From Callipepla californica brunnescens (lineage: Eukaryota > Chordata > Aves > Galliformes > Odontophoridae), in contig JALIRH010000044.1 in NCBI GenBank assembly GCA_023055505.1, positions 4,464,001-4,528,000 of the forward strand: a stretch of DNA of 64,000 bases. Reading direction: 5' to 3'. Positions 6,001 to 64,000 of this stretch are shown piece after piece. The notes under the pieces were generated by a model, which was not told the DNA's origin, did not search any database, and worked only from the letters and a program-made list of their open reading frames with translations. Within the stretch, counting starts at the first letter, position 1. Each line of letters begins with the position of its first letter. The position numbers were made by a program, and so were the translations under genes.

Positions 6001-7710
6001 GCTAAATATGTCTTTTTAAATAATTCATTACTTAAGTCATATTAATTTTCATTTGCATAATTACAGCAGCAGATTATAGTGTCAGCTCTTTCACTAACCT
6101 GTCTTTCTTTTTAAAAAAGTAATTACTGCACTCTTTCTAAGAGATAGGATTTAGTCAGAGATGTGCCTGCTTTCAGAATAGGTTAAACATTAAGAAGAAA
6201 AATTTCCAAGTAATAGCTGAATTCACCTCACTGTATGATCAGTCCTATGTCATTAGCATGCACAAATAGTGTAAAATGTAAGGACAAATGCTTTCCAGGA
6301 TAAAGCCCAAACTGATCTTTACATGTTTAATTTGTTTTGTCAGTCGTGACATTGTTCAGTTTGCTTTTTGAAGCAAGGTTATCCTGTTTTTTATTCTGGG
6401 TGCAAACCTAGCTGTCTGGGATGGGAAACAAGCCGCAGTGCCTTTCCACAGGTCGAGAGGTGTGTGTTTGAGTCTTGCCCTTGGCCCCTGCCAGCCCAGC
6501 TGTAAGTGGATACCTGGGTTTTCATACTCGTGCACCTGAAACATCCTGATGCGATGCCGGGCACATTACGCTCTTGCTCTCTACACTGCTGTTGGAGCAC
6601 CTCTGTGTTTTGCAGGCTTTGCTTGGCCGATCAAAAGACCCATAAACCTTTGTTTGAACTGGGAAATGGGAGTAATGCTTTGCAGCAGCGGGTGAGCTGC
6701 ACAGCACATCCAACAGCTGTGGAGTGTGGGAGGAATGGGTTTAGAGATTCTCTGCCCATTACTGGGTTATCAACATGTGTCTCCTCACCAAAACCTTTGG
6801 GAAATGTTCCAAAGTTTCAGTTTGTAACTTACAACATACAGCAGCAAAAAGGCCTGTAATAGTAAGCTCTCAAGATTATATTATACTGACTTCAGAGGCG
6901 TGTTTCTTAAGTCCTGAATAAGCAAAGGGCTTAGCTTTTTTGATTTTAGCTGAATTCTGAATTCTACACCTATTCGATTTCACACTGTGATCTTGTTGGT
7001 CCCATGAGTGTAGCTGCAGTCACACCTTTTGTGCAAGGAGGTCGAAGTCCCTGTCGAGGCAGGAGCCAGAGTAAAAGACCTTGTGAAGTACAAAGAGTAC
7101 TTCAGGGTAGGGTCTGGTTTGGCAGATGGTGTTCATGTTCATATACTACTACTGAAACTACCTCCCCTATAAATAGTCTGAGCTGCTAAATTACTGACGG
7201 TAATGCCTTGTGGGAAAAAAAAAACAAAAAAAAAACCAACACAACAAGCCCCTTATCTCTTGTCATTGTGGTAAGTGGAAGGATTAGCTATTAGATGGTA
7301 GCTAAATTACGACTAGTCTGTATACACACCTCCACCTAATTATGCTAATTACTGTAGCGTTGCTCATTTCCTGAGCTATTGTTCTGTGCAGTGTCTGACA
7401 GCTGGCAGGTTCCGCTCCAGAGATGGCTGCATCTGACCTTGGGGAAAAGTGTTTCTGTTCTGATCTCTGTTTTTCCAAGGATGAGGCTGTGACAGCCTTC
7501 CACTTGACAATGACACCTCTCTTTCTTGCAACTAGCCCTTGAATTTCTGATGTAGAGTGATATCTGACTCCATATGCTATGTTCAACCCTGAAGGTGACT
7601 GCTGTGCCTACAAAACTTCCAACTATTGACTTGCTTTTTGTGTGTGTGTGTGTGTGTTTTTGTTTTTGTTTTTGTTTTCTTTTTTCCCCTTTGTTTTCAT
7701 GTCACTGCAG
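1..7710. other. Non-coding DNA upstream of the first visible MARCHF8 exon (probably intron)
   Basis: No exon, CR1 copy or RNA gene was recognised here. Open frames are short (at most 117 codons, at 6506-6859) and lack splice or composition support. The stretch has ordinary T-runs, an AT-rich block at about 5990-6260 and a TG/T-rich tract at 7639-7690 just before the first exon. The exon for the conserved MARCHF8 N-terminus (about 51 residues in human) was searched for and not seen, so the stretch is most simply an intron of MARCHF8, with the promoter left of the window. Confidence 0.6.
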
Positions 7711-13700: not shown

Positions 13701-16650
13701 CTTTTTAAAACCCAGGAGGAAACTGGTCTTTTGCCTGCTTTTGGTTCTGATCAGTGTTTTCTTTTTATACTCTTTGGTAACTGTGATAAACACTTAATCT
13801 CTTGTTCTGCTTCTGGATTTCTTGCCAGTGGGAGAAGCTGCAGATGACAGCCAGCGAGAGGAGGAAGATCATGTGCTCTGTAACATTCCATATCATTGCC
13901 ATCACCTGCGTTGTGTGGTCTCTGTATGTCCTCATAGACAGGACTGCTGAAGAGATTAAACAGGGACAGACTACTGGTACGTTACTTGATTATCTTCCTA
14001 CTTATTCAGTTGGAATAATTCTTTATTCTGAATGCAGAGAAAGAGGATGCAAAGCCTGAGAATGCAGGTAATGCTTTTACTTCAATCAGTCTGATTTAGG
14101 CTGAGATTGAGTTGGTTTAAAAGAACAGTTCTGAAGTGTTTTAGATAAATTGGTGTAAATTTGTGGGTGCTTTTAAGTCTATTACGGTCAATTTTGCACT
14201 TGTGAAATGTGCAGATACAAGAGCCAATCCACTGTAGCCAAACACAAAATTGCGCTGTCTTTGCTAATTTATAGCAATCTGGAGCACTTACTGAGGAGAT
14301 AAGGATGTAAGTATTTGTTTGCTGCTATGGCTACATTTAGCTGAGTGAAATGAGAACAATTTTAAAAAGAGAAGAAGGAAGGGGAACCAAAATCCAAACC
14401 TCTGAGCCAAACTAACAGGATTATTCTTTCTATTCAGCTGTTTTTGAGATGCATTAGCACAACTTTCCTGTGGAAGACATATTTGACTGCAGAAGTTAAA
14501 GAGTGGTTGTGCAAGAAGCGGAGAAATTCAGGTTGATTCTTAGAATTCCAGTTCACTCAGCTGAGATGAGGTGCATTCCAATTGGTGCAGTGGTTGACAC
14601 TCTACACAGATGTCTTAACTAACAGGATAGCAGGCTTCCTTCAGTGTGCTAGCTGCGGGATTATCAAATTGAAATGGGTCGACTTTGGAGTGTCAGGCTG
14701 TGAATTTGAAGCGCTTACAGAGCTGTTTTTTCAGGCAGCTGAGCTCCCCCTAAAGGTGGGGATAGGAGGGACAGGTTGTACAGCAAGGCACAACTCTTTT
14801 ACGGCATACTGTCCTTGCTCACAGAGCAAGGAGCATTGAATGCCAACCTCATATGCAGTTAGGAAATGTCTGGCTTGAGTTTGAAGAGCTGAGCGTCAAT
14901 AAACCTGCAAATCCACAGAGTTTTTACAGTCTCTGTAGAGCAGAATCACACTTCAGAGAGATTTGCTGTCACTTTTTTCAGTTCAGCTGTAGTATGATTG
15001 TTCATAGTTTCAGTCAGGAAGCTGCTTTGAATGACTGCTTGTAGTTTCTGTTTCATCCAACACCATCATTTCCATGTACGGTGAAAATTATTCTTTCAGC
15101 ATAAGATTTCCATACGATAAAGAAAAACAAATGCTCTTTTTCTATCATATCCTCGTTATTTTATTCAATACATTAGATGACCATGACATGGAGTAGTATG
15201 ACTATACAGTACTTGTTACTCTACTTTCTTCACTCCCTTCATTTGAATTCTAAATCTGAGGAGCTGTGTTACATGTGTGGAGTGTGCTTGTGTTTATGCA
15301 TTCACGTCTGCACAGCAAAGTGTAGGCTATTGCTGCCTGCAGATGGCATCAGGTAGCTCCCCTGTGAGTATTCATCACCAGTGGGATTTCATCAGTAGTC
15401 ATGTTGCAGTGCTCTTTGGGTTTGGAGACTAAAATATTTTCATTCTTCCTACACTGCTGTAAATTTCCAAAAAAACAGTGGCCTGTATCTTGTAAAAAGC
15501 TTCAAGACTTGGCTATGATTTTTTTACTCTGCTGATGCACTGAGAAACCTGAGAGTAATTCAGCATGGTTTCATATCCATCTTGGGATACTTATTTTTCA
15601 AGAGGAGAGATACTGAGGAGAGAAACATCCTGTTTATAAGGAAAAGATTTATAAAATCAGTAGTTTCTCATTTAAAAGTAGGTGATAGGGATGTAACAAG
15701 ATCCTGCAAACCAGGCATGTTCAGTAAAAGTACTGGTGGTCATTTTTAATATGTCAAGTGAGTTTGCCAGAATGCTTCAGCTTCTCCAATGCTTGCCATC
15801 TTGCATCAAAAGTGACACTGTCATTCAAGTACAAGCTGCTGAGTCTCATGCAGATAATCAAACTGTCAGGTTTGTGTCAAGAACGTCTCAAGCTGAATGG
15901 TGACAATGGATCTCTTCAAAGACTTAAGGCCATTTGTACTGTGTGATCATAGAGTGGAACAGACTCCTTAGGCCTCTGAATGTCTTACTATCAAAAGGAA
16001 AGTGTGCCATAGAAGCCCTTTCATAATCTGATCCAATTTTCTTCTAAAAACAGGTGTAAAAGGACCTAAGGTTTATTACTGGCATTTGCTTTGATTGTGC
16101 TGCACAAGAGCTCAGTCATAAAGGATCAATTGGTTTTGTGTTTCCTTTTCCCTTTGGTGAGCAATATGTTATGTGAATTCAACAAGCGTAAAAGTCTAAA
16201 TATGTTAAACCTGAAGAGAGGAAAAAAAGGGAAAAAAAAAATGGCAAAATAAGAACTCTGTAATTGTCTCCTTAAGGAGTGTTTTTGAGAGACCCAGTAT
16301 TGACATCTTTTCTCTATTCCTTTCTTTTTTTTCCCTTTCTTCCAGGGATTCTAGAATGGCCATTTTGGACTAAGCTGGTGGTTGTGGCTATTGGTTTCAC
16401 TGGAGGACTTCTGTTCATGTATGTACAATGCAAAGTGTACGTACAGCTGTGGAAGAGACTTAAAGCTTATAACCGAGTAATATATGTACAGAACTGTCCA
16501 GAAACTAGTAAAAAGAACATTTTTGAAAAACCTGCACTAATGGAGCCAAACTTCGAAAGTAAAGAAATGCTTGGGGTTCACCATTCAGATACGAACTCTT
16601 CACATTACACAGAGCCAGAAGACTGTGCTGCAGAGATCCTTCACGTCTGA
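7711..16650 (+). CDS. MARCHF8: MARCHF8 (MARCH8), membrane-bound RING-CH E3 ubiquitin ligase, 3' part of the coding region
   Basis: MARCHF8 is a transmembrane E3 ligase of endosomes and plasma membrane. It ubiquitinates surface proteins such as MHC class II, CD86 and the transferrin receptor for lysosomal degradation. Exons 7711-7790, 10848-11028, 13829-13976 and 16346-16650 join in phase to 714 nt, the last 237 residues of the short form. The RING-CH C4HC3 ligands are visible: the first Cys pair in ICHC, the second in PCHC, His in FVH, Cys in QAC and the final pair in CELC. Two membrane spans follow, one per exon: [19 protein letters not shown], then the segment from [11 protein letters not shown] to MYVQC. 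The protein ends in AEILHV. An 840-nt exon at 8088-8927 is optional. The N-terminal exon is outside the window. Identity rests on near-identity to remembered human MARCHF8 across the RING-CH and both spans. MARCHF1, the closest paralogue, is the alternative but fits the C-terminus less well. Confidence 0.93.
8088..8927 (+). CDS. MARCHF8: MARCHF8 long-isoform cassette exon (280 codons)
   Basis: An uninterrupted frame runs from a strong acceptor (long T/C tract then CATGCAG) to a weak donor, GTTGGT. The exon is exactly 840 nt and has the same phase at both ends, so including or skipping it keeps the frame. It inserts 280 residues between DIC and the RING-CH domain. The insert has a Lys/Arg-rich first third, Ser-rich stretches (for example [14 protein letters not shown]), an acidic patch ([12 protein letters not shown]) and a Ser/Pro-rich end; I see no known domain. 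From memory the human gene has a long form of about 573 residues against 291 for the short form, a difference that matches. A weak donor is typical of an alternatively used exon. Confidence 0.82.
8928..10847 (+). other. MARCHF8 intron with possible alternative 3' end
   Basis: This intron starts at the weak donor of the 840-nt exon. The exon's frame stays open for another 43 codons to TGA 9055-9057, and AATAAA stands at 9142-9147, so a read-through transcript is possible. A TG repeat lies near 10650-10668. Nothing else was recognised. Confidence 0.6.
10848..11028 (+). CDS. MARCHF8: MARCHF8 RING-CH exon
   Basis: This exon lies between GATTCAG and GTAGGC. It completes the Arg codon and adds 60 residues, from [18 protein letters not shown] to KLKPLRK. 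It carries all eight zinc ligands of the RING-CH (RINGv) finger, including the [13 protein letters not shown] segment expected to contact the E2. It ends in phase 0. Confidence 0.95.
11029..13828 (+). other. MARCHF8 intron
   Basis: No exon, CR1 copy or RNA gene was seen. It contains an A-run at about 12270, an AAT triplet run at about 12964-12980 and purine-rich DNA at 12890-12990. Open frames of 60-135 codons on both strands lack supporting signals. Confidence 0.65.
13829..13976 (+). CDS. MARCHF8: MARCHF8 first transmembrane exon
   Basis: This 148-nt exon lies between CTTGCCAG and GTACGT. It encodes [16 protein letters not shown], then the first membrane span, then a short luminal loop ending IKQGQTTG. 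It ends one base into a Gly codon, which the next exon completes. Confidence 0.94.
13977..16345 (+). other. MARCHF8 intron
   Basis: This is AT-rich DNA between the two membrane-span exons, ending in a strong T/C-rich acceptor. No additional exon or repeat family was recognised. Confidence 0.65.
16346..16650 (+). CDS. MARCHF8: MARCHF8 last coding exon, second membrane span and cytosolic tail
   Basis: This exon starts after TTCTTCCAG and ends at TGA 16648-16650. It encodes [10 protein letters not shown], the second membrane span and a cytosolic tail with [30 protein letters not shown] and HSDTNSS, ending [10 protein letters not shown]. The membrane-proximal part is nearly invariant against human; the last 40 residues are more divergent. 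Confidence 0.95.
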
Positions 16651-24000: not shown

Positions 24001-25625
24001 TAGCACTTTGTATGTGCCTTACTCCTATGCACCCCAAATTAACTTACAAAGTACTGTTGTTCTCTTCTTGAGGATGCACTGAGGTTCCCCTGGAGTCTGG
24101 CTTGCCCCTTGTCTTCTTCTTGTGCTTAACTTTCTGCTCATGAATCTGCTGTGCTATAGGAGGACAGATTCTTTTCCAAGACTACAGGATTATCTAAGTC
24201 AGCGTTTCTCCTGCCAGCAAGAACATGGTTTTTATTTTTATCCCCAAAGAGCGCTTTCAGGACCATGCAACATTCAGGGCCACACCTGAGCAGTTGATAC
24301 ACACCAGAGAAATCAGGTGACGATTAAATCCAACTATTCAGCAGCTTTCTGGCAGAGATGAGACAAATCAAGCAGTGGCAGAAGTTAAAGGTGTTACTCT
24401 GGGGATTAATTTGGACCAGCCTGACTTCAGATGGGAACTGATGCTGCACAAACTCTGCCCCTGTTGCCGGGGCCTGGGACATTTGCAGCAGGCTTCAGTC
24501 CCTTACTGCTGTTCCTGGCTGGCAGAGCGAGGGTACTCTGCTCACCCTGTGCTCCTGAAGATCTGTGGGTCCTCCAAGCAGGGATAGCAGCAGGAACTGC
24601 TGCTTTCTGGTCTGGTGGAGCAGCCACAATTAGGACCCATATATTCTCAGCTATCAAGCCCATGTCCCTTAGATTATTTATATAGCCTGGAAAGATCCGT
24701 AGGCTCTGCTAATCAACTCCATTATTGGTAATTACCATGTTACATCATTCCTCCCATCCTTTATTAGCATGCTCCAGGAGCCATCTGCCCATCCAAATCA
24801 TCTGTAGCCTCAGGGGAGCAGTAAGGAATGCAACATCCTCACAGCATAACCTTGCTTGTCACTAGCATTGCAAGGAGGTCGAGAGAGACAGCAATGGCCT
24901 TCCCCTGACAAGTTCAGTGCAGTGAACATGAGCAGTGCTTAGAGGGAGGGGACCTGTGAATAACCATCCTGTCCTACAGTGCCATGTGCTCTCCCCCAGC
25001 CCATGCTCTGGGTCTACCAGAGTCCCTCAGCCCAATGCTGGACCATCATGGCAGCTCCCTCCTTCCTTCTTTTTATTTCACGTTTCTGGGCAATTTCCCT
25101 GGCTTGTTCCAACAAGACTTGCAGGCATAGGTAGAAGCAATGATGTCTCTTTGTAAAAGGTCTGTTTGGGGTTGTGTTGTGCAGGTTCTTGATACGAAGC
25201 ATTTGATAATCCTGCCAATATTAAATACCACTGACAATAAATGACTGGAGGTGGAAGTCAAGGTAAAATCAAAAGGTACTAAAGAAATAGACTAAAAAGA
25301 GGGTGAGTTGTGAGGGGGCTGGAGAGTGTCATGTAGAGCATTGAGCTTAATTACTGTTTTCTTTAGCGAGTCTACAAGAGCACCGGGGAGCAGGAGGGGG
25401 TTCCAGCACCGCACCAGCGCACGGGATCTGACTCGCAAAGAAACGTGGAAAACCACCCAGTGAGGTTTGCACAGCGCTTTGCTCCGTATCTGAAGCAAAA
25501 CCGAAGGTGCCCAGAAGATGGCCCCGTGTCGGACAGGTGGAAGCACCACTACCTTCACAGGTTTCAGGTGACTTGCAGTGAAAGGTGTATGAGCCTCAAC
25601 TTGTCGCCATCTGTGGAAGAGAGAA
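21051..25625. other. Intergenic DNA between MARCHF8 and ALOX5
   Basis: No gene was recognised. A T-run is at about 21841-21860. A locally GC-rich block at about 22290-22900 is open on both strands but has no recognisable protein or splice pattern. An exon-like open stretch (25367-25567) ends just before the pentamer tract and is treated as a finding. No CR1 copy was seen. Confidence 0.55.
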
Positions 25626-25820
25626 GAGAGGAGAGGAGAGGAGAGGAGAGGAGAGGAGAGGAGAGGAGAGGAGAGGAGAGGAGAGGAGAGGAGAGGAGAG
25701 GAGAGGAGAGGAGAGGAGAGGAGAGGAGAGGAGAGGAGAGGAGAGGAGAGGAGAGGAGAGGAGAGGAGAGGAGAGGAGAGGAGAGGAGAGGAGAGGAGAG
25801 GAGAGGAGAGGAGAGGAGAG
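25626..25820. repeat. GAGAG pentanucleotide microsatellite, 39 perfect copies
   Basis: The unit GAGAG (equivalently AGGAG) repeats 39 times over 195 bp without a single interruption. The tract is all purine on one strand. It lies 1.1 kb upstream of the ALOX5 start. Open frames across it on both strands are artefacts of the repeat. Lack of any interruption implies recent expansion and likely length polymorphism. Confidence 0.97.
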
Positions 25821-36000: not shown

Positions 36001-39000
36001 CATAGGTTGATAAGAGAACCAGCAGGTTTCACAGCCATTCTAAGAAAGCTGCAGCTCCAAATAACAGTGAACACTTTCTTATCAAGTCCATCCAGTGACC
36101 TGACATGGATGACCTTACATGGTTACACTTCCTTTAAAAAAAGTTCATCTGACATTCAGACATTTAGTATCTGTCCAGGAAGTCTTGCCCAATTCTCTTT
36201 TCTTCTTTTGATGCTCAGGAAAGGCCATTCTGTGCTCCCTGTACAATCCTTCTGTGCTCCTGTCAGGACTTATAAGACCTCCAAAGAGGTTGTCTCCACG
36301 TCCAGTCTAGATAATTGCACAAGATGCTTCCTAACATGCCTTCAGGCACCTCTACTTATCTTGACTGCTATCTGTAGCAGTAGAAGCAGTCGGTTCCACC
36401 TGTTCCTTGTCTGGACTCAGTATAACAATAGCTCTTCTGTCTGATTTCTGGTTATACTGATTGGAATCCTCTTTCAAAATGCCACTTGCTGTCTTTGTGG
36501 GCTTCTTGGGCTCTTTGGTCACTTCTAATCCTGTTCATTTTAAGGTATCTCAGACTTGGTTTATTATTTACAACTACTACCTTCTGGGATTGTTCCCCCC
36601 TTAAATTCTGTTCAGGAGGATTTGCCATTTCACTGTAACTATTATTTGTTCTGTTAACTGCCTTCCCCATCTTTGTGCAGCATATGTCCTTTTCTTTGCA
36701 CATTTGAAGATGCTAGCAGAAAGGAAACCAGACTCTAAATCCACCGTCGTGTAATCAAAATAAATGTTTTCTATTTCATAACAACAGAGCTACCATTCAT
36801 GTAACAATATAAGACTTTGCTTTTAGGATGGAGAATCTCTATATCAACCGTTTTATGCACATGTTCCAGTCTTCCTGGAGTGACTTTGCAGATTTTGAGA
36901 AGATCTTTGTGAGAATCAGTAACACAATCTCTGGTGAGTTCATTAGCATTTTCTCACATGTACCTCATCAAACAACTAATTTTCTATCTTGAATATATCT
37001 GATTAGGATGGAAAAGGCTGACATACACTTCTGCTTGCACATCGTTTACCATAAACAGACAGTAATCTTAGACTGCTGATCATACAACAACCCACAAGAC
37101 CACAAAGCAGTGTTACCATAGAAACACAGATAGGCTTGGGTTGGAAGGGACCTCCAGTTCCAAACCCCTGCCAATGGTTTGGATGCTTTTGGTGGTACAG
37201 GTTGTTCCAGTTGGTTGTTTTGACAAAACTTGCAAGCCATCAGGCCAGTACATCTGGGGACATGTTGCAATGGGCTGAGAATGAGCTGGGAGCTGCAACT
37301 TCTTCACCTGGTCCTGAAGCAGACAAAATAGTCCATCTCTCCACAACTGGAGCAGGTGTAATTCTTGCTGGAAGCCTTTGATTTGTGAGCCAGACCCAAC
37401 CTGCTACTGTGGCCTGCAGTTATATTAATGGAAATTATTTTACTGTAGTACTGGATATAATAGATTCACAGATGCTATTATTCAGTTAACATGTAACTCC
37501 TCAAGCATGTGTAAGTGCTCATTCTGGCTCTGCAAAGGATCGTACTTCCTGCTCTGAAGTTTTGCCCCTCTTCAGGCTGACTAAGGGCCAGTTAACAGAA
37601 ACAGGAGGCATTTCTATGGTTTCAAGTATGAAGTAAAGCACACAAGGAGGCTAGGTCTTTTAAAGCTAATTACATAAATTTGTTACATTTAATAAGATTG
37701 CTTCCTAAAGTACAAGGATTAGATATAACCTACATTCAATTTCATTATTAAATGTTTCTCTACCTATGAGGAAAGCTCCAGTTTCAAGTTTTAAACTATA
37801 AGAATGGATCTCAGCTATATGAGTGTACCTCTGAATCTGATTATTATCAAGCCTTAGCAGAAACAAATTCACAATGTTTTTCAGTCATGCAGTTGACATT
37901 AGCAGGATTTTGTTTTCTTTTAATCATGTCTTTTCTGATTCTGAACTTGCTGTTTGAAGTGGCAATAATGACATAAGGAAACAGAGGACTGCAGTGTGGG
38001 AAACACACAGTACTACTAAAAATGTAATAGTAAGGAGATGGAGTCCCCCAAGCCAGTGTTTTATTCAGAAGAGTTGTTAATCTGCTTTTTATTAACAATT
38101 GAAAAATAAAATAAGCTAATGAGCAGTGTTAGTGAGAAGCCCAAAGTCAGCATCATTCTCCAGGAACCCTTCACCCAACTCCAGTCACTGCTGTTCTTGC
38201 CCTTCCCACCTTGGGTATTCCCCTTCCCTTGCCTGTGCCAACATGTTGGGGCTTACCTGTCTGTATAATAAATCCCAAGAATTTGAAGACTGAGGTTGAA
38301 GAATATCACGGAAGACCTAAGGAGGTGACCTGCAGATGGACAGCATAATTTTCATAGAAGTTGTATGTTTCAGTGCAGTATAACAAAAGGAGTGGGGGAG
38401 AAACAGAGAAATCCCAAATGCGCTGATATTGATGCTGCAAACTTGTTTTCCTTTAGAATATGTGATGCAGCACTGGAAAGAAGATTTTATGTTTGGCTAC
38501 CAGTTTCTGAATGGCTGCAATCCTGTGCTGATCCGGCGATGCACAGAGATTCCCAAGAAGTTGCCAGTGACCATGGATATGGTAGAATGCAGCCTGGAGA
38601 GAAACCTGACCCTGGAGGAAGAAGTGAAGGTAGGGCTTGGGGTGAAGTTGGACTCCATCTGCTCCTTGTTGTGTTCTCTGACCTCCACTCCTTTTTCTAG
38701 CTATGCTTCAGCCACATCTCCTCTCTTGAGCTGCAGGTGAGGCTCTACTACAGGTCCAATTAAAGAGATGTCTCCACAAGGTGAAGGGTACTTCACAATG
38801 CTTTAATCTCAAAGGATAGGGAGTGTGAGAGGGGCAAAGCATCCTACCCTTTCACAGAAGGATGGTACGCTCTGTCACTCACAGAGCTGAACTAAAATGC
38901 TGAAGAAGGACTGGGAGGATGGTACATTCCTTTTGCCTGTACAGTGAGCATGGGGTGTGGAACAGTGTGAAAACTGTTTGCACCTCAGTGTCACTGCATG

Positions 39001-42000
39001 AATGCCAAACACATAGTTGCTCCTTGCTGAGTTGCTTGCTGCTGGGCTCAGCAGACACAAGTCAGGTAGCTTGTGTAGAGGTGCTTGCTGTCCCAATGGC
39101 AAACATCACTCCTGAGCCACCTTGAGCAAGGGTGGGCCAGCAGCTGCCTGCAACTACAGGACATGAACCAGCCTCTGGCCAAGACTCCCCAGCCTTAGTT
39201 CTGAGCCTTGCTGCTCGTGCCTTTCTGCTTTTCTTTCTTGACCTCTCTCTGTGCTGTCTTCTTCCTTTCTCATCTACCTTCCAGCTGCTAATCTGTTCTT
39301 TTTCTGTCCTTTCCACCAGGAACACTGTTTGCTGTGTTTTTTCATCTTTACCTCTCTCCGTTAAAACACGCCAAATCATTTTCTTTCTTTTTTTTTTTTT
39401 TTTTTCCAGCAAGGAAACATTTTCATTGTGGACTATGAACTGCTGGATGGTGTGGAAGCCAATAAGACAGACCCATGTACAATACAGTACTTGGCTGCAC
39501 CTATCTGTTTGCTTTACAAGAATCTGGAGAATAAAATAGTACCCATTGCAATCCAGGTGAGCTTGCTTTCAGAGAGTTGAAAGGGGCACGTTGCTTTCTG
39601 TCTCATCTTAAACACAAATGTATTTGGGGATTGTATTGTTTCCATCTCTTTCAGCTTGGTCAAAAGCCTGGGCCAGAAAATCCCATATTCCTTCCTTCAG
39701 ATGCCACCTATGACTGGCTACTGGCCAAAATTTGGGTTCGTTCGTCTGATTTCCACATCCACCAGACGGTGACCCATCTCTTACGGACACACCTCGTCTC
39801 AGAGGTGTTCAGCATAGCTATGTTCCGGCAGCTGCCTGCTGTGCATCCCCTCTTTAAGGTTGGTCCTTCTGTAAAGAAGTTCTGGGGGAGTCAAGGAGGT
39901 TTTCTTTTTTCAAAAGTATGTCCTGGTGGTAGCTCAGATGGGATGGCTTGACTGGCTGCCTGGCAAGGCAGTGTAGAGCTACCTGCACTCATCAAGGACT
40001 TCAAATTCTGCAAATGGTTGCTGTTGAATTCAGTCAAAGAATTTGCCCTCTTCCATTGTTTGTCATATTTCACAGCTGTTGGTGCCACATATGCGGTTCA
40101 CAATAGCCATCAACACCAAAGCTCGAGAACAGCTCATCTGTGAGTGTGGTCTTTTTGACAAGGTAAGTAATCCCCTTTGCAAATCTTTGTTATTTTTCAT
40201 GGGTTCCTATGTGTTTTAATTCTTTAACTGTCACATACTGCATTGTTTCTTGACTTTTCTGCTAAAGCACAAACATAAACAGCATCGTCTGAGACACAGA
40301 AACGGTGCCTTGAGTTAATTCACTTCCTGTTGTGCTAAAGATAGTATCTTTCAACTCTAAGTCACCAATTCAGAACTGTATGGTATCCAAACATCTAGAT
40401 TCAACTGTACTAGTATTTACAACTGCTCTTCATTTCCTTGCTACACCAGAAATAGCACGTCTCATCTAGGAACCACAATGGGTTGACGTGCAGCACTCTC
40501 TGTGGAAATGTGCTAGCTGCAACCAGGACATTTTGAGAGGTTTCAGAAGACCTTTCATAGAGAGAGCCTCTGTCTCAGAACATCTCTGTTCCTCATACAC
40601 GTCTGGCACTGGACAAATTCCAGGCTTAAATCCCAGGGTCCCTAACAGTAAATGTCATTCATAACCACCACCTGTCATCAATCTTAAACCACTCTGCAGC
40701 AGCAGTTGGTAGTTTAGCGAAAGCTCCGGTCTGGTACACTCCTGACTGCCCTCCTTCATACACACACTCGTTCTGGAGCATGGAGCTGGCAGAAAGTGCT
40801 CTGGGTTCAGTACTTCTATACTTCTGTACTTTATTACTGTATTCCATAGTACTATTATAAGATGATACTTAAGATGTGCCCATGGAAAAAAAAAAAGGGT
40901 ATATTATCAGTGGTTTGTGGAAGAGATGTGAAAACTCTGAAGTCAAAATGCAGAGCTGCAGTAGACATCTGCAGTTTGGTACTTGTTTGTGTGGAGATGT
41001 ATTTCTCTCCTGGTAAAAACAAACCTCCTGGGAATTTGGACAGCCAGTCTTGGCACAAAGTGAGCCTAATTTATCTCCCACTGTTCATATCTTGCTGTTG
41101 TCCCTGCAGGCAAATGCCACAGGTGGAGGAGGACATGTACAAATGGTTCAGAAAGCAATGAAGGATCTGACTTACAGCTCACTCTGCTTCCCTGAGGATA
41201 TAAAAGCTAAGGGGATGGACAGCAAAGAGGATATTCCCTACTACTACTACAGAGATGACGGCATTAAAGTCTGGGAGGCTATAAAGAGGTAAGAGACTGT
41301 AGATCTGGAAAGGGCCAATAAAGTCTTTGTCCCAGAGACACTACTCCATTTTGTCTCTGCTCACTTTGCTCTACATCACAGCCTTGTGAATACGCGTTTG
41401 ATCACGTAGTGTCTTTTTTGTGCAAGGAGGGGATCAGTAGGTCATATTGGTTGGTGCCTGGTGCTCCTTTCTTCTGTATGTGGTTTGTATGTTTCCTCTA
41501 GTGTGTTTTCTGCTCATGAAATGTGTTTATGATTCTTCTTCCCTCTCTTGTCAGCAACAAGGCTAAACCATGAATTAAACAGTGTGTTTTCAGAAAGACG
41601 GGAGCTGAGGGTATAGAAGCTGGAGGAGTAAAGAGAAGTTCCAAGAGTTAGCATTGTTTAGGTATAGAAGAGAGGAGACAGGGTGGAATATGCAAAAAGA
41701 TAAAACGTTTCATCAAAAAGAATTTTTCCCTGTGTCTGTAGACACAGGTTCTTTAGCCTTGAAGAAATTGAAGAATTGACAATAAAAACGATTTTGGGTA
41801 GACTTCATTCAAATTATTCTTTGATTGAGAGAAGCATGGGAACAGATTGTTTTGATAGCCTGCAGAGTCCCCAGGGGTGAGGGCTTCCAGTACCATTTAA
41901 AATAATTTCCTAAAGTGGTATAGATTGAAATGATCTTTGTCCTAAGGCAAGGAATAAATGCCTTCACGTGGGTGAAGGAGAGTGTTGTGAACCCATCCTG

Positions 42001-55607: not shown

Positions 55608-55662
55608 ATGAATCCCAACAGTGATACAGAAATCTGTCTTCGGTGTGGAGAAAAGAAATGTG
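55608..55662 (+). CDS. TIR-like gene, first coding exon (Cys-rich start)
   Basis: ATG at 55608 (G at -3) opens MNPNSDTEICLRCGEKKC and the donor GTAAGG splits a Gly codon. An acceptor-like TTCTAG at 55585-55590 suggests the transcript starts further upstream. The frame is open above the ATG, so a longer N-terminus is not excluded. Confidence 0.6.
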
Positions 55663-58600
55663 GTAAGGGTCTCCAAAGTCAGTCCATGTAGGCTGCAACC
55701 TGCAGCTGGTCCACAGGCTCAGAACATTGCTATCTGAACTGGAAACAACCCAGCTCACTATTAAAAAGTCAATATTGACCCAGATCTGTGGGGTAGATCA
55801 GAGGAGATGGTGAGAAGGAAATGCTTGAAAGTGATCAGCCTCTTGGAAGAAATTATCAACAGGGAACTTCAGAGCAAACAACTCAAGTTTCAGTCTTGAT
55901 GGTATAGTATGCTAATTGTACCATACCTTAACAAATAAGTTAAGTCTTAATTTTCAAAAAAACAAATGCAATAGGAACTTAAGGATAAAACTTAAGGGAA
56001 GTTTACTTCCAACACTGGAATAAATGCATAGCCTTCTAGTACTTTAAGGGACTGCTTACAAGCAGGAAGGGAACTGAATTTTTACAGTTTGATAGTGATA
56101 GGACAAGGGGAAATGGCTTTAAACTAAAAGAGGGGAGATTTAAGTTAGATGTTAGGAAGAAACTCTTCACTCACCAGGTGGTGATGTGCCAGCACAGGCT
56201 GCCTAGAGAAGCCGTGGGTGCCCTATCCCTGGAAGTCCTCAAGGCTGGGTTGGATGGGGCCCTGGGCAGCCTGATCTGGTGGTTAGCAGCCCTGCCCATG
56301 ACAGGGGGTTGGAGCTGGATGATATTCAAGGTCCCCTCCAAGCTAAGGCACTCTGTGATTCAGAACCTGAGTTTCTTTGGGGCTGCCCTGATCTGCAGTG
56401 ACATTGTTCTGGTTTGCTAGTAAGCACATCAACTTCTCTTTGATCTATGATTATTGAAAGTACTGGGTATTTTTAAATAGTTCAATGTACCTTTGGCATT
56501 AGTCCTCCAGAGCCTCTTCATAAAGAATCAAGGGGAAGTAGTTTTCTTCTCCCAGATCTTTAACTCAATTCCAAGCTGGTTGTGTTGAATAAAATGGAAA
56601 GAAAAGAGGATGACCTACTTTACCAAGACGAGATCTTGCTCTGTACTTGACCTTTTTGCTAAACTAAAACTTGAGACTCTTCTGAAGAAAAAAATGCAAA
56701 AATCCAAAATCTTTTCAGAAACTGAAATCATAAATTAATTTGATAGATACCATTTGCTTTCATTCAAAGTACAGGATTCCATTCAGACTCTGCCTGCTTA
56801 TACACTGCCCCAGTGCACGTCCAGTTGGGAAAAAACTAATGCTCTTCTTCCCAGTGAAGGAGCAGTCCTTGCACTGTAAAATTAACTGAACTTCCTGAAG
56901 GGACATTCCCGTGTGGAACCAATATTCCCAAATGAGTGGAGTAAGCTGTATTTTAGTCATCTCATGTCCTTACAGGTGACCTCATTTTTCATAAGCTGTA
57001 TTGCTATGACCTCTACATTCCATCTGCACCTGCACCACGGAATAAGGAGCAAACAGATGTCGACAGCTTCATCAATGAGAAGATTGTTGAAGTCCTGGAA
57101 AAAGATGATTACTGCTGTTACCATGGCTGCAGGAATTTTGTTGGTGGAGATACCATCATACAGGCCATACAGAAACCCATGAAGATTATTCCAGTTACGC
57201 TTATACCTGTCTACAAAGATCAGTACTCCCTAACTCTTTTAGACATGCTTGTAACTGCAGATAAACTGAGGAGGATCATACTGCTGTTGTTTGATGCCAC
57301 CCAAATTAAGCCCGATCTATGGCAATGTTGTTTTTCAGTAGAAGCAAAAGACCCCAAACTTTTGGATAAAATAAAGAAAACTATAGATCGTCATAGAAAA
57401 CAGGCATCGTTGAGAAAGAAACAGATAGTGTCAAGAGAAATGGACACAGGTAAGATTAAAAATCTTGTCATGTTTGACTGTTGGATTAATTTACTTTGAA
57501 GTTTATTTTGCACAGAAGAGGGAGAGGGGGGTGACAGCTTTTGTGAGAGACAGTTTCAAATATGAGAGGTTAAGGATTGTGCAGCAACACTGGTGCAGAT
57601 TTCTGCCAGTTGTACAGTATTCGTCCAGGCTTCCTCCATGGATACAAGTTGGACCAAGGCAACCTGAAATAACTACTTTAGTTGACCTAAAATATCTTGT
57701 CTAAAGAATTCCAAGATTTCTTAGTGCTCCAGTGAATTCTGTGTATCTTGAGAAGCCAAAATCTTTTCTTTCCAACAATATGAGTATCTATTTTATATTT
57801 TTAAAGAGCCAGGGGGATGTAGAATATTCAAGCTGCTGCTCTGTAGGACTGAACATAACTTCCTAGCCATCAGTTTGGTATTCTGAAAGAAGACACACTT
57901 CTTGTGATAGATTTTCAGTGTCTGACTTTGTTTGGGGAATATACTCAGCAATAAACCTCCTGAGATGTAGACATTCACTGAGTTGTGTATATGCACCCAG
58001 AATTAAATACACGCATGGTGCCAGATAATAAACATTCATCACACGTCAGCTGGAGTGCTTATTCCAGAACAAATTAAACATGATTATACTTTATGATTAT
58101 TTATATTCTGTTACATTCCAGAAAAGAGTTCTCCTTAACTTCCCCCTTTTCAGATTCTACATCACTCTTGTCATCCTTCACTAGCAGAGACTGTAATTAA
58201 TACCACTGTTTTAATGTATACATTTCTGTAGCATGTCTGCAGGATAACAGAGATGGATTTAGCCAACTAATGTTTCTGTGCTCTGTTTTTTATTACAGCT
58301 CCTTTCAGAAGGTCAGATGGATCAAGGAAATCATTTGGACCATGTTGCAGACATTCCTGCACCTCTTCCTCCAGCAACTCCTTCCTGCCACATAGAATGC
58401 TTCCCCACAGAGGTACTGCTCCTGCTCTCTGGTAATACTGTCCCAGCCACAGAGCTACCCAGCACATAATACTCCCACACAACAACATCAGGGTGAATTT
58501 TATTGCAATAGACATTAGGACATTTCAAATTCTGCACAAAAGTCTCCTGCCTTCCCATTTGTGCTTTTGATTTGCAAACAATGGTTGTGTTTATCTGCAT

Positions 58601-61600
58601 CAGAGTAATTACTTGTAGATGATTCATATAAGCACAACGCCTTCTGGTTAATAATCACTGCAGTGGAGTTGAAAAGTGGGTTCTTAATGTATCAAGAGTT
58701 AAGCCAGAAGACTGTAAAGGAAAGATTTGGTGAGGAAAAGAAGCATAAATTGTATGTGTCTTTCTTATTTCATTGTGTACAGCTGATTGGTGAAACTCAG
58801 TAGGAGAGCTTGAGTCTCATAGGATTATATAGTCTTAATGGGCAAGAATAAGCTAAAACTTGGACTGCAAGCATTATTTCAACAATGCTATGAGCCAACT
58901 TCAGACCATTGCTGGTATTAAGATGTCACCTCTTCCAATTTATCTCCTCCAAGGGTACAGTAGGTTAACCCCTTCATGAAAAACACAAGCCATGGGCAGG
59001 TTTTGACTACTGCACAACGTCCAGGATAAGTATATGGCTTTCTATTCAAGGAGATTTTTGAGGACCAATGTGTGCAAGGTTTGCGCAGGACGTCTAATAG
59101 CGTAGTGATGACTGACTTTCTTCCATGCCTTTCAGACTTCTGGTAGCTTGTAGGTACATTCATTGCTATGTTCCTGGTAACATCCCAAATCATATCTTCT
59201 TCTCCATGGACAAGCACACTAATGATCCCTGTAGATTGTGATCCAGCACAGAAACCAGCTAAAATATCTGAGAGAGTTCCAAATGGTATGTTTATTTTGT
59301 TTTCTATCCAGAAACCGAAGACATTGTGAAAGAAATGACCAATATATCCTTTGAAGGGATAGATAATTATTTCATGAAATGCTGGGATGCTGGCAGTGTA
59401 TGGACCAGGCAGCATATCTGTCAGGCTTTGGTCAAAAACATCAAGAGGGACTTTCTGACCTTCTGTAAGCTGGCAAACTTGGAGAGATTGGAGATGAAAG
59501 TGAGAAGTCTCATACAATGCAATGGTTTTGCTTCTAGTCAGGAGCTCCACATTCAGCTGGAGAAACTATACTGCTGGATTCTGGCAGCAATGTTTGTTCA
59601 TGTCTCTACAATGAACAATGCAAAGCTGGATGCTCTGTTGAGAGGCATGGTCTTTACAAAATGCACAGTCTCTTCAAAGGAGAGGAATTACAAGTATCTG
59701 TGCTTTAGCGCCTACCAGAAAATCAGAATGGCCATCTCCACTGCTGCAAAGAAAAAAAGACCCTGGCAAAATTCCATACAGAAACACCTGAAGCACCTGG
59801 AAAGTTTCCTTAACACACTGGAGAAAAGAGTGAATTGCGCAAATGAGAGGACCCTGCAGTTCCGATACATCCAGAAGCAGCTTCAGAGAGTACCCTGGAT
59901 TATAAGACATATATTCATTCTTGTTCTTACTGAAAAGGTGAGTAACAAACTGATCACACTACCCTGGTATTCCTTTTATAACTCCTGACTTGTTCTCCTC
60001 TCCTTGGAATGATGTTACTCTGTAAGCAGCATATACAGGAGCTGGGAAGGAGACTTGATTTATGCATTTTTTTCTTAGTCAGATGTGAAGTCACTTAATA
60101 TGAAAGAAGGCAAATGGCACCAACCAAGTTCACAGTAAACATGTACAAGTGGAGTGTAGTCAATTTCTGTCTGTATTTTCCAGGTGTTTGAAGCCAAACT
60201 GCTTGCTGTCAGCCAACCCTTCTTATTTCATGTGTGCACAAAGATGGGAAAAAAACACTGGGAGATCTTTTTGGAAATCACAGAGCGCATCACTGAACAT
60301 ATCCAGGCCAGCCACACACAAGGTAAGGAAATGCAGGACTCATTTAGGGTGTAGGACATGCCAGTAGTTACTGTGGGCATCAGGTTTCAGGCAACAGAAA
60401 AAAAAACACCTCTCTGCTGATCACCGCTACAAAAAGTCTCAGTTGCATTACTTATTAGACTGTATGTCCAACTATTATTCCTTTTTAATCTATCCTTCAC
60501 CACTGATCAGTGTAAATGAGGAAAACAATGGCAGTGACAAAAGTAAAACTTTTGAGGAGGAAGCAGGACTGGGCTTTCAGTTTCTTAGATAAAGCAGCTG
60601 AGATTTTCACTATCCAGTTTTCCTGAGCTGATTGCTTTTCTGATCATTGAACTGAGCCCTCTTCTACTAAGATAAAGCTCTCCATAGAGCCATAAACCAG
60701 TTCTGCAGATATCCAACTGGACACAGCGTCGTGGTGACTTGGCTTTGCTTAGTCGCTGCTAGAGCAGGTAGCTTCCAATACCAAACCATTGTACCATTGT
60801 GCCACATTCTTTTTAAAAATTGAAATGTGTGGTTTTAGGTCTCACTGAGGCTTCTAGCCTTTAGTGAGATATCCTGGCTCCTCTGCCACACATTAACGGA
60901 TCACTTCTCTGTCACAGGGGCAGTAAGAGAATGCCTGGATCTGCTCCAGGGCCTGTGGGAATGGTGCATGCAAACTGCCTCCGAAAAGAAGAAGAGTTTG
61001 GCAATGATCATTCTTAATCACTCCTTCCATAAGCTGCTTTACCACTCCCTGAGTGAGGTGAGGCACTGTGTTGCACCCCTGCTCTTTGGCGAGGATGGCA
61101 CATACACACCCATTGCTGAGCTGGGACACAAAGCAATCCCAGCAGACCCCTGCCACGTGGAGGCAGCTCTCCGGGAATGCCTGCAGGCCACCTTCCCTGA
61201 ACTGACCCTCAAGGGACAGATGAAGACAAATGGCAGTTTTATGTTTGTGCAAGGAGCCACACATGCAGGCAAAGCAAAGGTCTGCATAGCCAAGCAGCAG
61301 AGCCTGAATGATATCTTGCAGACAAATACCACTGAGAGTGACTTTGAAAGGTTTCAGGAGGTGATCAAAATAGTGGCTGTGTGTCAAGACAGGGAGTTCA
61401 TTGCCGAGCTGCACAAGTCCAGTGCCTACGGAGTGCCTCCACTGTATGTGATTGAAGATGGGAATCCACTCTTAACTTTTCTGCAGGAGAAGAGGAATAA
61501 GCTTACCCTATCTGCTATGATAGGCATTTTGAAAGATATTGCTAGAGCTGTCTGGTCGTGTCACCAGAAAAAGGTTTTGCTTTGCAGCATCACTCCAGCC

Positions 61601-63391
61601 AGCTTCACTGTGGTCAGAGGCGAGCAGCAAGGAACAGGAGCACCTCAACTCCAGGTCAAGCTGTCTGATTTCCTCCAGGCCAGGCTGACTCCCCCCGAGG
61701 ATGAGAAAGACTATTCATCTAGTGACTGCCTTTATGAAACTATCAAATCTGTACAGCTTAGAGGTACAAACACATAGAGATGGCTGTTTTTAGTGGGCTG
61801 CCATTCACTGAGCTTGCTTCTGTTAATCTTTTCTTTACCCTGAGGTTTAGCATTCTCAGGGAAATTAAGATTTGTTTGTCCTTCCCATATCTGTGAAGGC
61901 CTCAGAGAGCTGTGATAAATGCAAGCTAAGACTATTATTGATATAAATGTGCAAAAAAAAAAAAAAAAAACAGGAAAGGGAAACTGAAGAAGTCTCAAAA
62001 AGGACTTGTTCTTACCCTGACTGCAGTTGAAACAACTGAATTTGTAGAATCATAGATTCATAGAATAGTTTGAGTTAGAAGGTACCCTTAAAGGCCATCT
62101 AGCCCAACTGCCCTGCAATGAACAGGGACACCTACATCTCCATAAGGTGCTTAGAGCCCTGTCCAATCTGACCTTGGATGTCTGCAGAGATGGGGCATCC
62201 ACCACTTCTCAGGGCAACCTGTGCCAGTGCCTCATGATCCTTACTGTAAAAAACTTCTTCCTTATGTCCAATCTGTATCTACTCTCTTTTAGTTTGAAAG
62301 CAGTTCAGGTGCTGGGACCTCACCTTGCTCTCCTCCTGCTCAGTTTTCAGCCATTCTGAAGTGGTTCTTACTGCATGGCTGGGGCTGGCTGACTTTTAGG
62401 CTCTTTATGCATGCATAGTACAAGTAAGCAATCAAAACTGCTCAGATAGCTTTAATCACATGCTTCTAATAAGGAAATGAGTTTAACAAAAATAATCAGT
62501 TCACAAAGTGAATAAACATTCAGCCAGTTTCTGTAAACAGCACCCCTCGTGTCTTTTCCTGGGCAGCTGCCATACAGACTAATGTTAGATCACTGAGTTG
62601 TCAGAAGTGATAGAAAGCTTGTTCTGCAAATGATCTTAATCAAAGATTAGGAGGAAAAAGCTGTCCCAGAAAGTGACATGAGTATTTAGACTTTAAAGTC
62701 TTTCAGCTCTTTGAAATCTCAAGCAGAAGCATACCTCCTTCAGTTTCATGTCGTGTTACTGGAGCCAGGCAAGGCTGGTGGCCCAGGAATACACTGTAAG
62801 TGTGGGTGACTGTGGGTTCTGGAGTGTATAATACAGGCTGAGCCATGCTATGGCATTCCTCCAGTGAAGATACTATGAAAAACCCCTTTCTTCACACCTG
62901 TCAGAACTTCTCTGAGACCTTCATCCTTCAGTCAAATCTGGTTTCAATGTATTTCTAAATTATTAGGGTTTGATAGAGACAGCCTCACACAGGCAGAATC
63001 AAATGTTTTCCATATTTTGCTTCTTTACCCTCCTCATGAGTAACTTGTATGCTGCCTAGTATCTGTTGCTAAGAGCAGTTTCACCTTATATTTTATTGAC
63101 CACAGCCAGATGCTCTGAGGGTGGTTATTGACATTTACAAAGAAAAATCTATATCCATGACAAGGGTATGAGATTTCTGGTCACGGCCTTTGTCCTGATT
63201 TTCTTAACACAGGAGACAGTGAGGATCCACTGCCCATATACTTCAGTGCTCCTGAGTGCCTGCAGCATCATCTCTTCTCGGCTTTCTCTGATGCGTGGGC
63301 CACTGCTGCTACCTTTTATTCTGTTCTTCTGTATGGTGCACAAACATACTTTGAGCTCAGGCACTTGCCTGTGGCCAGATTCATAGGAGAG
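55608..63391 (+). CDS. Unnamed TIR-like / helical / pseudokinase protein, 3' end beyond the window
   Basis: I do not recognise this gene. Exons 55608-55662, 56976-57449, 59312-59937, 60184-60322, 60918-61763 and 63213-63391 have GT-AG borders and join in phase to 2319 nt, 773 codons without a stop; an optional 114-nt exon (58299-58412) also fits. A Cys-rich start (CLRCGEKKCG) leads into a TIR-like domain (about 28-150) with a YDLYI first strand and a box-2-like RNFVGGDTI. A long helical region (about 177-490) follows. Then comes a kinase-like fold (about 500 onward) with a VCIAK strand, ILKDIARAVWSCHQKKVLLC where the helix and HRD loop should be, SDF in place of DFG, SAPECL for APE and SDAWATAATFYSVLLYG as helix F. 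Loss of HRD suggests no phosphotransfer. A role as an innate-immune scaffold is inference. TLR, IL1R, MyD88, SARM1, BCAP and IRAK families do not fit. Confidence 0.75.
55663..56975 (+). other. Intron of the TIR-like gene
   Basis: Contains a CR1 copy at 56085-56365. No other feature recognised. Confidence 0.65.
56085..56365 (+). mobile_element. CR1 LINE 3' fragment
   Basis: Forward CR1: GATAGTGATAGGACAAGGGG, AAATGGCTTTAAACTAAAAG, GTTAGGAAGAAACTCTTCAC, then GGTTGGATGGGGCCCTGGGC and TTGGAGCTGGATGATATTCA. Ends in a decayed CACTCTGTGATTC. Confidence 0.93.
56976..57449 (+). CDS. TIR-like domain exon
   Basis: 474 nt between CCTTACAG and GTAAGA. Encodes DLIFHKLYCYDLYIPSAPA, an acidic first helix (VDSFINEKIVEVLEKDD), YCCYHGCRNFVGGDTIIQAI, a KIIPVTLIPVYKDQYSLTLL strand and loop, IILLLFDATQIKPDLW and a basic tail (KKTIDRHRKQASLRKKQ). 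Order and hydrophobic pattern fit a TIR fold with box 1 and box 2 recognisable. The acidic residue after the fourth strand is Asp instead of the Glu of enzymatic TIR domains. TIR assignment is by eye. Confidence 0.7.
57450..59311 (+). other. Intron(s) between the TIR-like and helical exons
   Basis: Apart from the possible 114-nt exon at 58299-58412 nothing was recognised: AT-rich DNA, no CR1. Confidence 0.55.
58299..58412 (+). CDS. Possible optional exon of the TIR-like gene
   Basis: 114 nt between TATTACAG and GTACTG; enters and leaves in phase 1, so it can be included or skipped without changing the frame. It would encode 38 residues rich in Ser, Arg, Pro and Cys (FRRSDGSRKSFGPCC, SCTSSSSNS). 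No domain. The composition is unusual for a linker, so support is the splice sites and phase only. Confidence 0.35.
59312..59937 (+). CDS. Helical region exon of the TIR-like gene
   Basis: 626 nt between TTCTATCCAG and GTGAGT, 208 codons open in one phase. Encodes ETEDIVKEMTNISFEGIDNY, VWTRQHICQALVKNIKRDF, LQFRYIQKQLQRVPWIIRH and similar amphipathic stretches rich in Leu, Lys and Cys. Predicted all-helical with no recognised domain. The antisense strand is also open for 210 codons but has no splice logic. Confidence 0.8.
60184..60322 (+). CDS. Short helical exon of the TIR-like gene
   Basis: 139 nt between TTTTCCAG and GTAAGG encoding VFEAKLLAVSQPFLFHVCTK and HWEIFLEITERITEHIQASH. Continues the helical region in phase and ends one base into a Gly codon. 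Confidence 0.8.
60323..60917 (+). other. Intron of the TIR-like gene
   Basis: No repeat family or exon recognised; ends at CTGTCACAG. Confidence 0.7.
60918..61763 (+). CDS. Pseudokinase N-lobe and catalytic-loop exon
   Basis: 846 nt between GTCACAG and the donor GTACAA. Starts AVRECLDLLQGLWEWCMQTA, a last helical part, then a kinase-like N-lobe (GSFMFVQGATHAGKAKVCIA then Lys), PPLYVIEDGNPLLTFLQE as hinge and helix D, ILKDIARAVWSCHQKKVLLC as helix E, LCSITPASFTVV replacing the HRD-containing loop, and VKLSDFLQARL replacing DFG at 61667-61672. The β3 Lys may be present but the catalytic Asp is absent. Confidence 0.8.
61764..63212 (+). other. Intron of the TIR-like gene
   Basis: Contains a CR1 copy at 62046-62345 and an A-run at 61952-61970. 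No exon recognised. Confidence 0.7.
62046..62345 (-). mobile_element. CR1 LINE 3' fragment
   Basis: Reverse CR1: AGAATCATAGATTCATAGAA, GGCCATCTAGCCCAACTGCC, GATGGGGCATCCACCACTTC, then GCCAGTGCCTCATGATCC and TTCTTCCTTATGTCCAATCT. Long and well preserved. Confidence 0.94.
63213..63391 (+). CDS. Pseudokinase C-lobe exon (APE and helix F)
   Basis: 179 nt between TTAACACAG and GTAAGT, phase 0 at the end. Encodes DSEDPLPIYFSAPECLQHHL and SAFSDAWATAATFYSVLLYG then AQTYFELRHLPVARFIGE. SAPECL aligns with the APE motif, SDAWA with the SDVW start of helix F, and LLYG with the conserved LL.YG. The rest of the C-lobe must lie downstream. Confidence 0.82.
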
Positions 63392-64000
63392 GTAAGTAGC
63401 TATCACAGAGGATCAGAAAAACTTCACTTCTACACAATGGGGGATGTTTTCTTGATGCCAGAGAATGGTGAGTTTGTGGAGGGACACTAATAGTGAGCCA
63501 TGAATAGTAGCCATGAAAAATACAACCTAATTCAGCCTGACATGCTGAAGTTTGCATTGAATCTGGTCTTTCAAACCTGTGGATCCCGTCGGCCATAAAA
63601 ATAGACTGTACCTATCTAACAGGCTACACACCCACATACAGGGTCTGGATAAGCTCAATTTTCCTCAAGGTAAATGGAGGAATGAAACTGTATTAGAGCT
63701 CTGTGAAAATCACTTGTATATGAGCATTGTCTCTGAACTGGCACGGGGGTAGGGTCCTACACCCATATGCTTGAAAGATCTATGATTGCTGTGTTGTAAA
63801 CTGGGGAAAAGAGAAGAGTGGGAGCAACTGGGGTATAAAGGGATATAATTACAAATTGTAGGATGCTTTCAAAGATGAAGTCATCAGGGAAAAGTACTAC
63901 ATGCAGTCGAATAGCAATGGTTTAAAAACACAGTTGCAATGGGGAAGTGGAACAGTGAAAGGAGCATTTCAGTAGAACAAATTCTGCTCCATTATACTGG
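63392..64000 (+). other. Right edge: intron of the TIR-like gene
   Basis: No confident exon. A 114-nt frame at 63862-63975 could follow in phase 0 and ends in a stop, but its acceptor (AATTGTAG) is poor and its product does not resemble a kinase C-lobe. Confidence 0.5.

Follow-up and report, generated by a model that had tools for sequence, protein, structure and literature searches.

A tetrapod gene in Callipepla with a TIR-like domain ahead of two predicted pseudokinases

TIR proteins are encoded by at least 25 human genes, which cover the TLRs, the IL-1 receptor family, the adaptors and PIK3AP1/BANK1, according to the available sections of PMC9440496, in whose main text the word kinase is absent. 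BCAP, the PIK3AP1 product, binds MAL and MyD88 (PMC7128310, available part). A TIR and a kinase domain do share a chain in invertebrate chordates, as the RIPK2 homologs of lancelets include LRR-TIR-Kinase proteins (PMC11747288, available part). The accessible portion of PMC8242945 describes no TIR-kinase fusion, and in that of PMC9978483 the term "Tir-kinase" is used in another sense. Here we describe a gene that begins within a 64,000-nucleotide stretch of the Callipepla californica brunnescens genome (the window; positions 4464001–4528000 of contig JALIRH010000044.1 in the 1.085-Gb assembly GCA_023055505.1) and whose predicted product carries a TIR-like domain, a helical region and two kinase-like domains. 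The initial annotation of this locus had named no vertebrate TIR protein with a kinase domain, and we likewise found none with a kinase or pseudokinase domain in the open-licence literature. The lancelet proteins resemble the present protein in placing TIR and kinase in one chordate chain but, compared by description only, they combine LRRs with one RIPK2-type kinase, whereas the present protein is from a vertebrate, gave no LRR match and has two pseudokinases of mainly tyrosine-kinase type (lancelet data from the available part of PMC11747288). The pairing of TIR and kinase in a chordate is therefore already published, and a vertebrate TIR-like domain followed by two pseudokinases was not found in the open-licence literature.

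We propose, with confidence that is evenly balanced, that this 17-exon tetrapod gene encodes a scaffold of the cytosol, about 1300 amino acids long, whose pseudokinases and tail would link the assembly of TIR domains to tyrosine-phosphate signalling. From its N-terminus the predicted protein has a CCHC motif and a TIR-like domain that a single symmetric exon encodes; 16 helices come next, then pseudokinases 1 and 2, and a tyrosine-bearing tail at the end. The part of the gene inside the window (55608–63391, + strand) consists of seven coding exons whose phases are consistent and which join into an 811-amino-acid frame without a stop, the borders being AG/GT sites chosen by eye. Both of its ends, the ATG at 55608 and the final base of a coding exon at 63391, are exactly those given initially. 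The consistent phase of the first description also holds, but its six exons become seven; the one left out was probably exon 3, which is symmetric, so that its omission keeps the phase, and which the Colinus and guinea fowl gene models omit too. Ten more exons follow 63391 on the same contig and bring the gene to 17 exons and 1298 amino acids, with the stop at 75262 in window-style numbering, that is, the window numbering carried past its end. They encode the remainder of pseudokinase 1 and a second kinase-like domain; the pseudokinase first described is thus present, but it is one of two, and the second lies past the window. The downstream borders, which satisfy AG/GT only, were selected by script for the best match to the Cyrtonyx protein and for that reason are not independent evidence. 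One of these exons is a 19-nucleotide microexon (66377–66395) encoding GYLDSR, and residues are present at this place in seven of seven relatives compared. When the Cyrtonyx protein was searched against the window with tblastn, all seven exons were matched in order at 76–96% identity. Given these ordered matches and 16 database proteins, a chance origin of the reading frame is excluded. Elsewhere in the genome the Cyrtonyx protein gave matches of 25–39 bits, all confined to the kinase part, among the 36 candidates scored of 52 initial ones; one copy of the gene was seen in this genome.

The 16 database proteins match at 33–95% identity with a weakest E value of 1.6e-101 (first search, 6035 candidates) and come from the birds Cyrtonyx, Colinus, guinea fowl, owl, the cuckoo Phaenicophaeus, ostrich and emu, from alligator, and from the frogs Ascaphus, Discoglossus, Mantella and Rana. 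A second, profile-based search (7985 candidates scored) returned 17 proteins, the new ones being a Bombina protein and eight general kinases, and a third search, whose query was the first 200 residues of the alligator protein, returned eight (505 candidates), none of them new. Identity to the 1298-residue model is 94% for Cyrtonyx (1290 aligned positions), 92% for Colinus (1061), 72% for owl, 55% for alligator and 32–37% for four frogs. The combination initially described for one vertebrate gene, in which some 300 helical residues stand between a TIR-like domain and a pseudokinase, is annotated in this order from quail to frog. The range suggested for it, avian or sauropsid, is too narrow, as five frog genera carry relatives. 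The three protein searches found no relative in mammals, turtles, lizards or fish; the profile search missed three of its own query rows, so this result is a lead and no proof of absence. In their sources the relatives are called "uncharacterized", "hypothetical" or "unnamed", and none has a functional name.

The domain encoded by exon 2 was compared with the TIR boxes as worded in the available part of PMC9440496, in which Box 1 is FDAFISY-like and Box 2, the BB loop, is GYKLC-RD-PG. Box 1 is present as LYCYD....S in all 15 rows that cover the site (18 scanned), and Box 2 is present with a change of Pro to Gly, C[YF]xGxR[ND]xxGG[DE], in 15 of 15. The structure predicted for the domain has a TIR-like order of elements. 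Foldseek with this low-confidence model returned TIR structures in rows 1–11 (best E 0.0085), while VIA-align gave mixed results. Sequence matches of the domain in the PDB are to TIR only and are weak. When eight domains were cut out and compared with Pfam, TIR matched one (E 0.094) and TIR_2 matched one (E 0.17), and these are the sole Pfam matches of the domain. Weighing against TIR identity is the Trp of Box 3, which is missing: no Trp lies past column 116 of 159 in eight of eight rows, and two of the eight have one at column 116 itself. Moreover, at E ≤ 10 no Pfam TIR model matches the Callipepla domain or any of seven whole relatives. Defence-system profiles gave no family for the eight TIR-like domain members. 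Of the TIR-like fold initially proposed, the element order and Boxes 1 and 2 therefore stand, but the Box 3 Trp and the Pfam match do not. Of the checks suggested with it, structure prediction recovered the element order at a mean pLDDT (predicted local distance difference test) of only 56.8, and profile hidden Markov models recovered the kinase part but no TIR in the Callipepla domain at E ≤ 10. On Boxes 1 and 2, the Foldseek result and the weak Pfam matches, the TIR identity of the exon 2 domain is good, though not proven. It is unlikely that the domain is instead another flavodoxin-like fold that merely resembles TIR, in a tandem pseudokinase scaffold that would work outside TIR pathways: the missing Trp and the low pLDDT leave room for such a fold, but both box motifs are correctly placed, the first 11 Foldseek rows are all TIR, and the only Pfam and PDB sequence matches, weak as they are, are to TIR.

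The kinase fold, of the tyrosine-kinase type, is recovered both by profile and by fold. Among solved structures its nearest neighbours belong to the tyrosine kinases (Trk, Abl, Eph, ZAP-70, IGF1R and JAK); in one profile search MLK1/MLK4 come shortly after these, and another search has one PERK row. The IRAK/RIPK-like scaffolding proposed initially finds no support here: neither IRAK nor RIPK is among the matches listed (60 of 922) in the kinase profile search, and the matches are mainly tyrosine kinases. In pseudokinase 1, the HRD Asp and the DFG Asp occur together in none of 15 rows. In pseudokinase 2, none of 16 rows keeps the DFG Asp, all of them having Arg or His instead, and of 17 rows only Mantella has the catalytic-loop Asn, which is Tyr or His in the other 16; an HCD sequence retains the catalytic Asp in all 17 rows covering the site. 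With key catalytic residues lost, both kinase-like domains look catalytically dead. Bacterial kinase models of NCBIfam fall on the kinase part far below cut-off, and two unrelated NCBIfam models fall in one protein (E 0.15 and 0.23), also far below it; in a viral fold library most matches were to viral kinases, but several proteins without a name also appeared, one of them as the top match (E 4.5e-13).

The kinase part invites comparison with the JAKs (TYK2 and JAK1-3), in which two domains of the tyrosine-kinase type likewise follow each other. In Foldseek the tandem matches TYK2 JH2-JH1 best, although the two do not superpose as a tandem (root mean square deviation 24.5), and the top profile matches of pseudokinase 2 include JAK kinases (E about 1e-22 to 1e-24). 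The present protein differs in that it has no FERM or SH2 match, has a TIR-like domain and a helical region instead, and lacks catalytic motifs in both kinase domains. In particular, searches of Pfam at E ≤ 10 with seven of seven proteins gave no FERM, SH2, death domain, SAM, LRR, TIR_3, DBB or ankyrin match; the fold lists, which are not a test of absence, likewise hold no FERM, SH2 or death-domain row among the matches listed. The JAK likeness and the retained HCD Asp are what one would expect if pseudokinase 2 were an unusual active kinase under the control of pseudokinase 1, in a JAK-shaped enzyme with the TIR-like domain in place of FERM-SH2. The loss of the DFG Asp and of the catalytic-loop Asn makes this improbable, and we favor two pseudokinases.

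The remaining parts of the protein are a short N-terminal motif, the helical region and the tail. The Cys-rich start noted initially is real and can be specified as a CCHC motif, present in 13 of 14 N-termini scanned. The helical region forms 16 consecutive helices over about 300 residues in an AlphaFold model. Fold-library searches of the protein returned lists filled by kinase matches. Pfam gave sub-cut-off matches to unrelated models in two relatives, among them DUF1539 at residues 476–544 of the Discoglossus protein, within the helical region (E 0.0051; score 17.3 bits, cut-off 23.8). The tail is acidic, with 25 Asp and Glu versus 11 Lys and Arg in the final 118 residues, and close to the C-terminal end 11 of 18 rows have the motif Y-x-D-[TV]-G, namely five birds including Callipepla, alligator, Ascaphus (three records), Discoglossus and Mantella. 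The Bombina tail has YEDIYG, and the remaining six rows end early or continue into other sequence. We read the Y-x-D-[TV]-G motif as a putative SH2-docking site.

A helical repeat region adjoining a TIR domain is also the layout of SARM1, and on this likeness, with the 16 modelled helices in place of its repeats, the TIR-like domain could be an enzyme that cleaves nicotinamide adenine dinucleotide (NAD), regulated by the pseudokinases. We consider this very improbable. The catalytic Glu of TIR NADases would, we assume, fall at the column after the EWSKF stretch of TIR-STING, a position placed by a weak alignment, and eight of eight rows have Leu, Gln or Arg there. The protein also differs from SARM1 in its opposite domain order, in having no SAM match and in its added kinase-like tandem.

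Several annotated relatives depart from the 17-exon structure. The Colinus model is without exons 3 and 16 and nearly all of exon 15 and runs on into a P450 (PF00067), and the guinea fowl model is without exon 3 and most of exons 4 and 5. Three Ascaphus records, one of them a named isoform, have 0 of the 282 positions of the bird exon 6 stretch, yet in each a single chain contains both the TIR-like and the kinase part, so that exon borders look common to frog and bird; as exon 6 is symmetric, a form without it may exist. A merger of two adjacent genes by the gene predictors is scarcely credible: the relatives are all predicted or annotated proteins and the continuation of the Colinus protein into P450 means that such joins do occur here, but bird, alligator and frog annotations all show the identical join, and the Ascaphus records keep it without the exon 6 stretch and with borders that look shared.

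For a scaffold of this kind we propose the following mechanism. The TIR-like domain, apparently without the catalytic Glu, would join TIR-TIR assemblies near TLR/IL-1R receptors in the manner of MAL, MyD88 and BCAP, and the helical repeat region would hold a partner. Pseudokinases such as the JAK JH2 domain and HER3 act by shape, and on this model the two pseudokinases would recruit and switch an active kinase. The tyrosine in the Y-x-D-[TV]-G motif of the acidic tail would then be phosphorylated and dock SH2 proteins, and a single chain could in this way couple TIR assembly to tyrosine-phosphate signalling. BCAP, whose tyrosines serve SH2 docking, and BANK1 are similar in being large cytosolic TIR scaffolds, but here ankyrin, DBB and TIR_3 matches are replaced by kinase-like domains; Y-x-x-M is absent from the last 120 residues of 10 proteins. 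Compared with MyD88 and IRAK in the Myddosome, TIR contact and kinase-like scaffolding would share one chain, yet there is no death domain match and the kinase part is mainly tyrosine-kinase-like. The architecture matches no tested family in full and, by the features tested, the protein is not a member of the JAK, BCAP/BANK1 or IRAK families; the likeliest mode of action is that of a TIR scaffold linked to a JAK-shaped pair of pseudokinases. More tentatively, and as a possibility we hold below the scaffold itself, it may represent a separate signalling class of TIR plus tandem pseudokinase, JAK-shaped with the receptor-binding half replaced by a TIR-like module, in which pseudokinase 2 possibly binds ATP. 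Such a class would have been present in the tetrapod ancestor, was perhaps lost in mammals, and would link TLR/IL-1R-type assemblies to phosphotyrosine signalling.

Table 1 Exons and motifs of the gene, in window numbering carried past position 64,000 where necessary.
Feature	Position	Strand	Remarks
Exon 1	55608–55662	+	Residues 1–19; ATG; CCHC motif up to its second Cys; 95% to Cyrtonyx
Exon 2	56976–57449	+	474 nucleotides, phase 1-1; remainder of the CCHC motif (His and final Cys), entire TIR-like domain
TIR Box 1-like motif YDLYIPS	57005–57025	+	Box wording after PMC9440496 (available part)
TIR Box 2-like motif CYHGCRNFVGGD	57116–57151	+	RDxxPG appears as R[ND]xxGG
Exon 3	58299–58412	+	Symmetric, phase 1-1; Ser/Arg-rich linker
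Exon 4	59312–59937	+	Bulk of the helical region
Exon 5	60184–60322	+	Helical region
Exon 6	60918–61763	+	Symmetric, phase 1-1; last part of the helical region, N-lobe and catalytic-loop position of pseudokinase 1
Pseudokinase 1 catalytic-loop position VLLCSITPASF	61574–61606	+	HRD Asp replaced by Ser
Pseudokinase 1 DFG position KLSDFLQAR	61658–61684	+	DFG Gly lost
Exon 7	63213–63391	+	APE motif (63239–63256) and start of the C-lobe of pseudokinase 1
Exons 8–12	64157–64304, 65328–65398, 66377–66395 (19 nucleotides), 67106–67173, 68098–68229	+	Window-style numbering; same contig
Exons 13–17	70849–71043, 71615–71730, 72247–72400, 73242–73393, 74854–75262	+	Window-style numbering; stop in the last exon

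Upstream of the gene, ALOX5 exons lie at 38384–39951 (+ strand); arachidonate 5-lipoxygenase is matched by one at about 38.4 kb (E 2.3e-27) and the Pfam lipoxygenase model by another at about 39.6 kb (1.3e-12). A candidate MARCHF8-like exon at 16276–16650, near 16.3 kb, has no Pfam match. In the downstream stretch, on the + strand at local positions of about 1400–7600, open frames were read as putative cytochrome P450 exons. A simple repeat of the GAGAGGA type spans about 25620–25815 and reads GEERR or LLSSP in frame, and two intron stretches of the gene, at about 56080–56400 and 62050–62350, look like CR1 retroposon remains. Rfam gave no match within the window.

If the proposed reading is true, the gene would define a new class of vertebrate TIR protein and connect TIR assembly directly with the phosphorylation of tyrosines. 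Should mammals be without it, birds, crocodilians and frogs would carry a part of innate signalling that is invisible to work on mouse and human.
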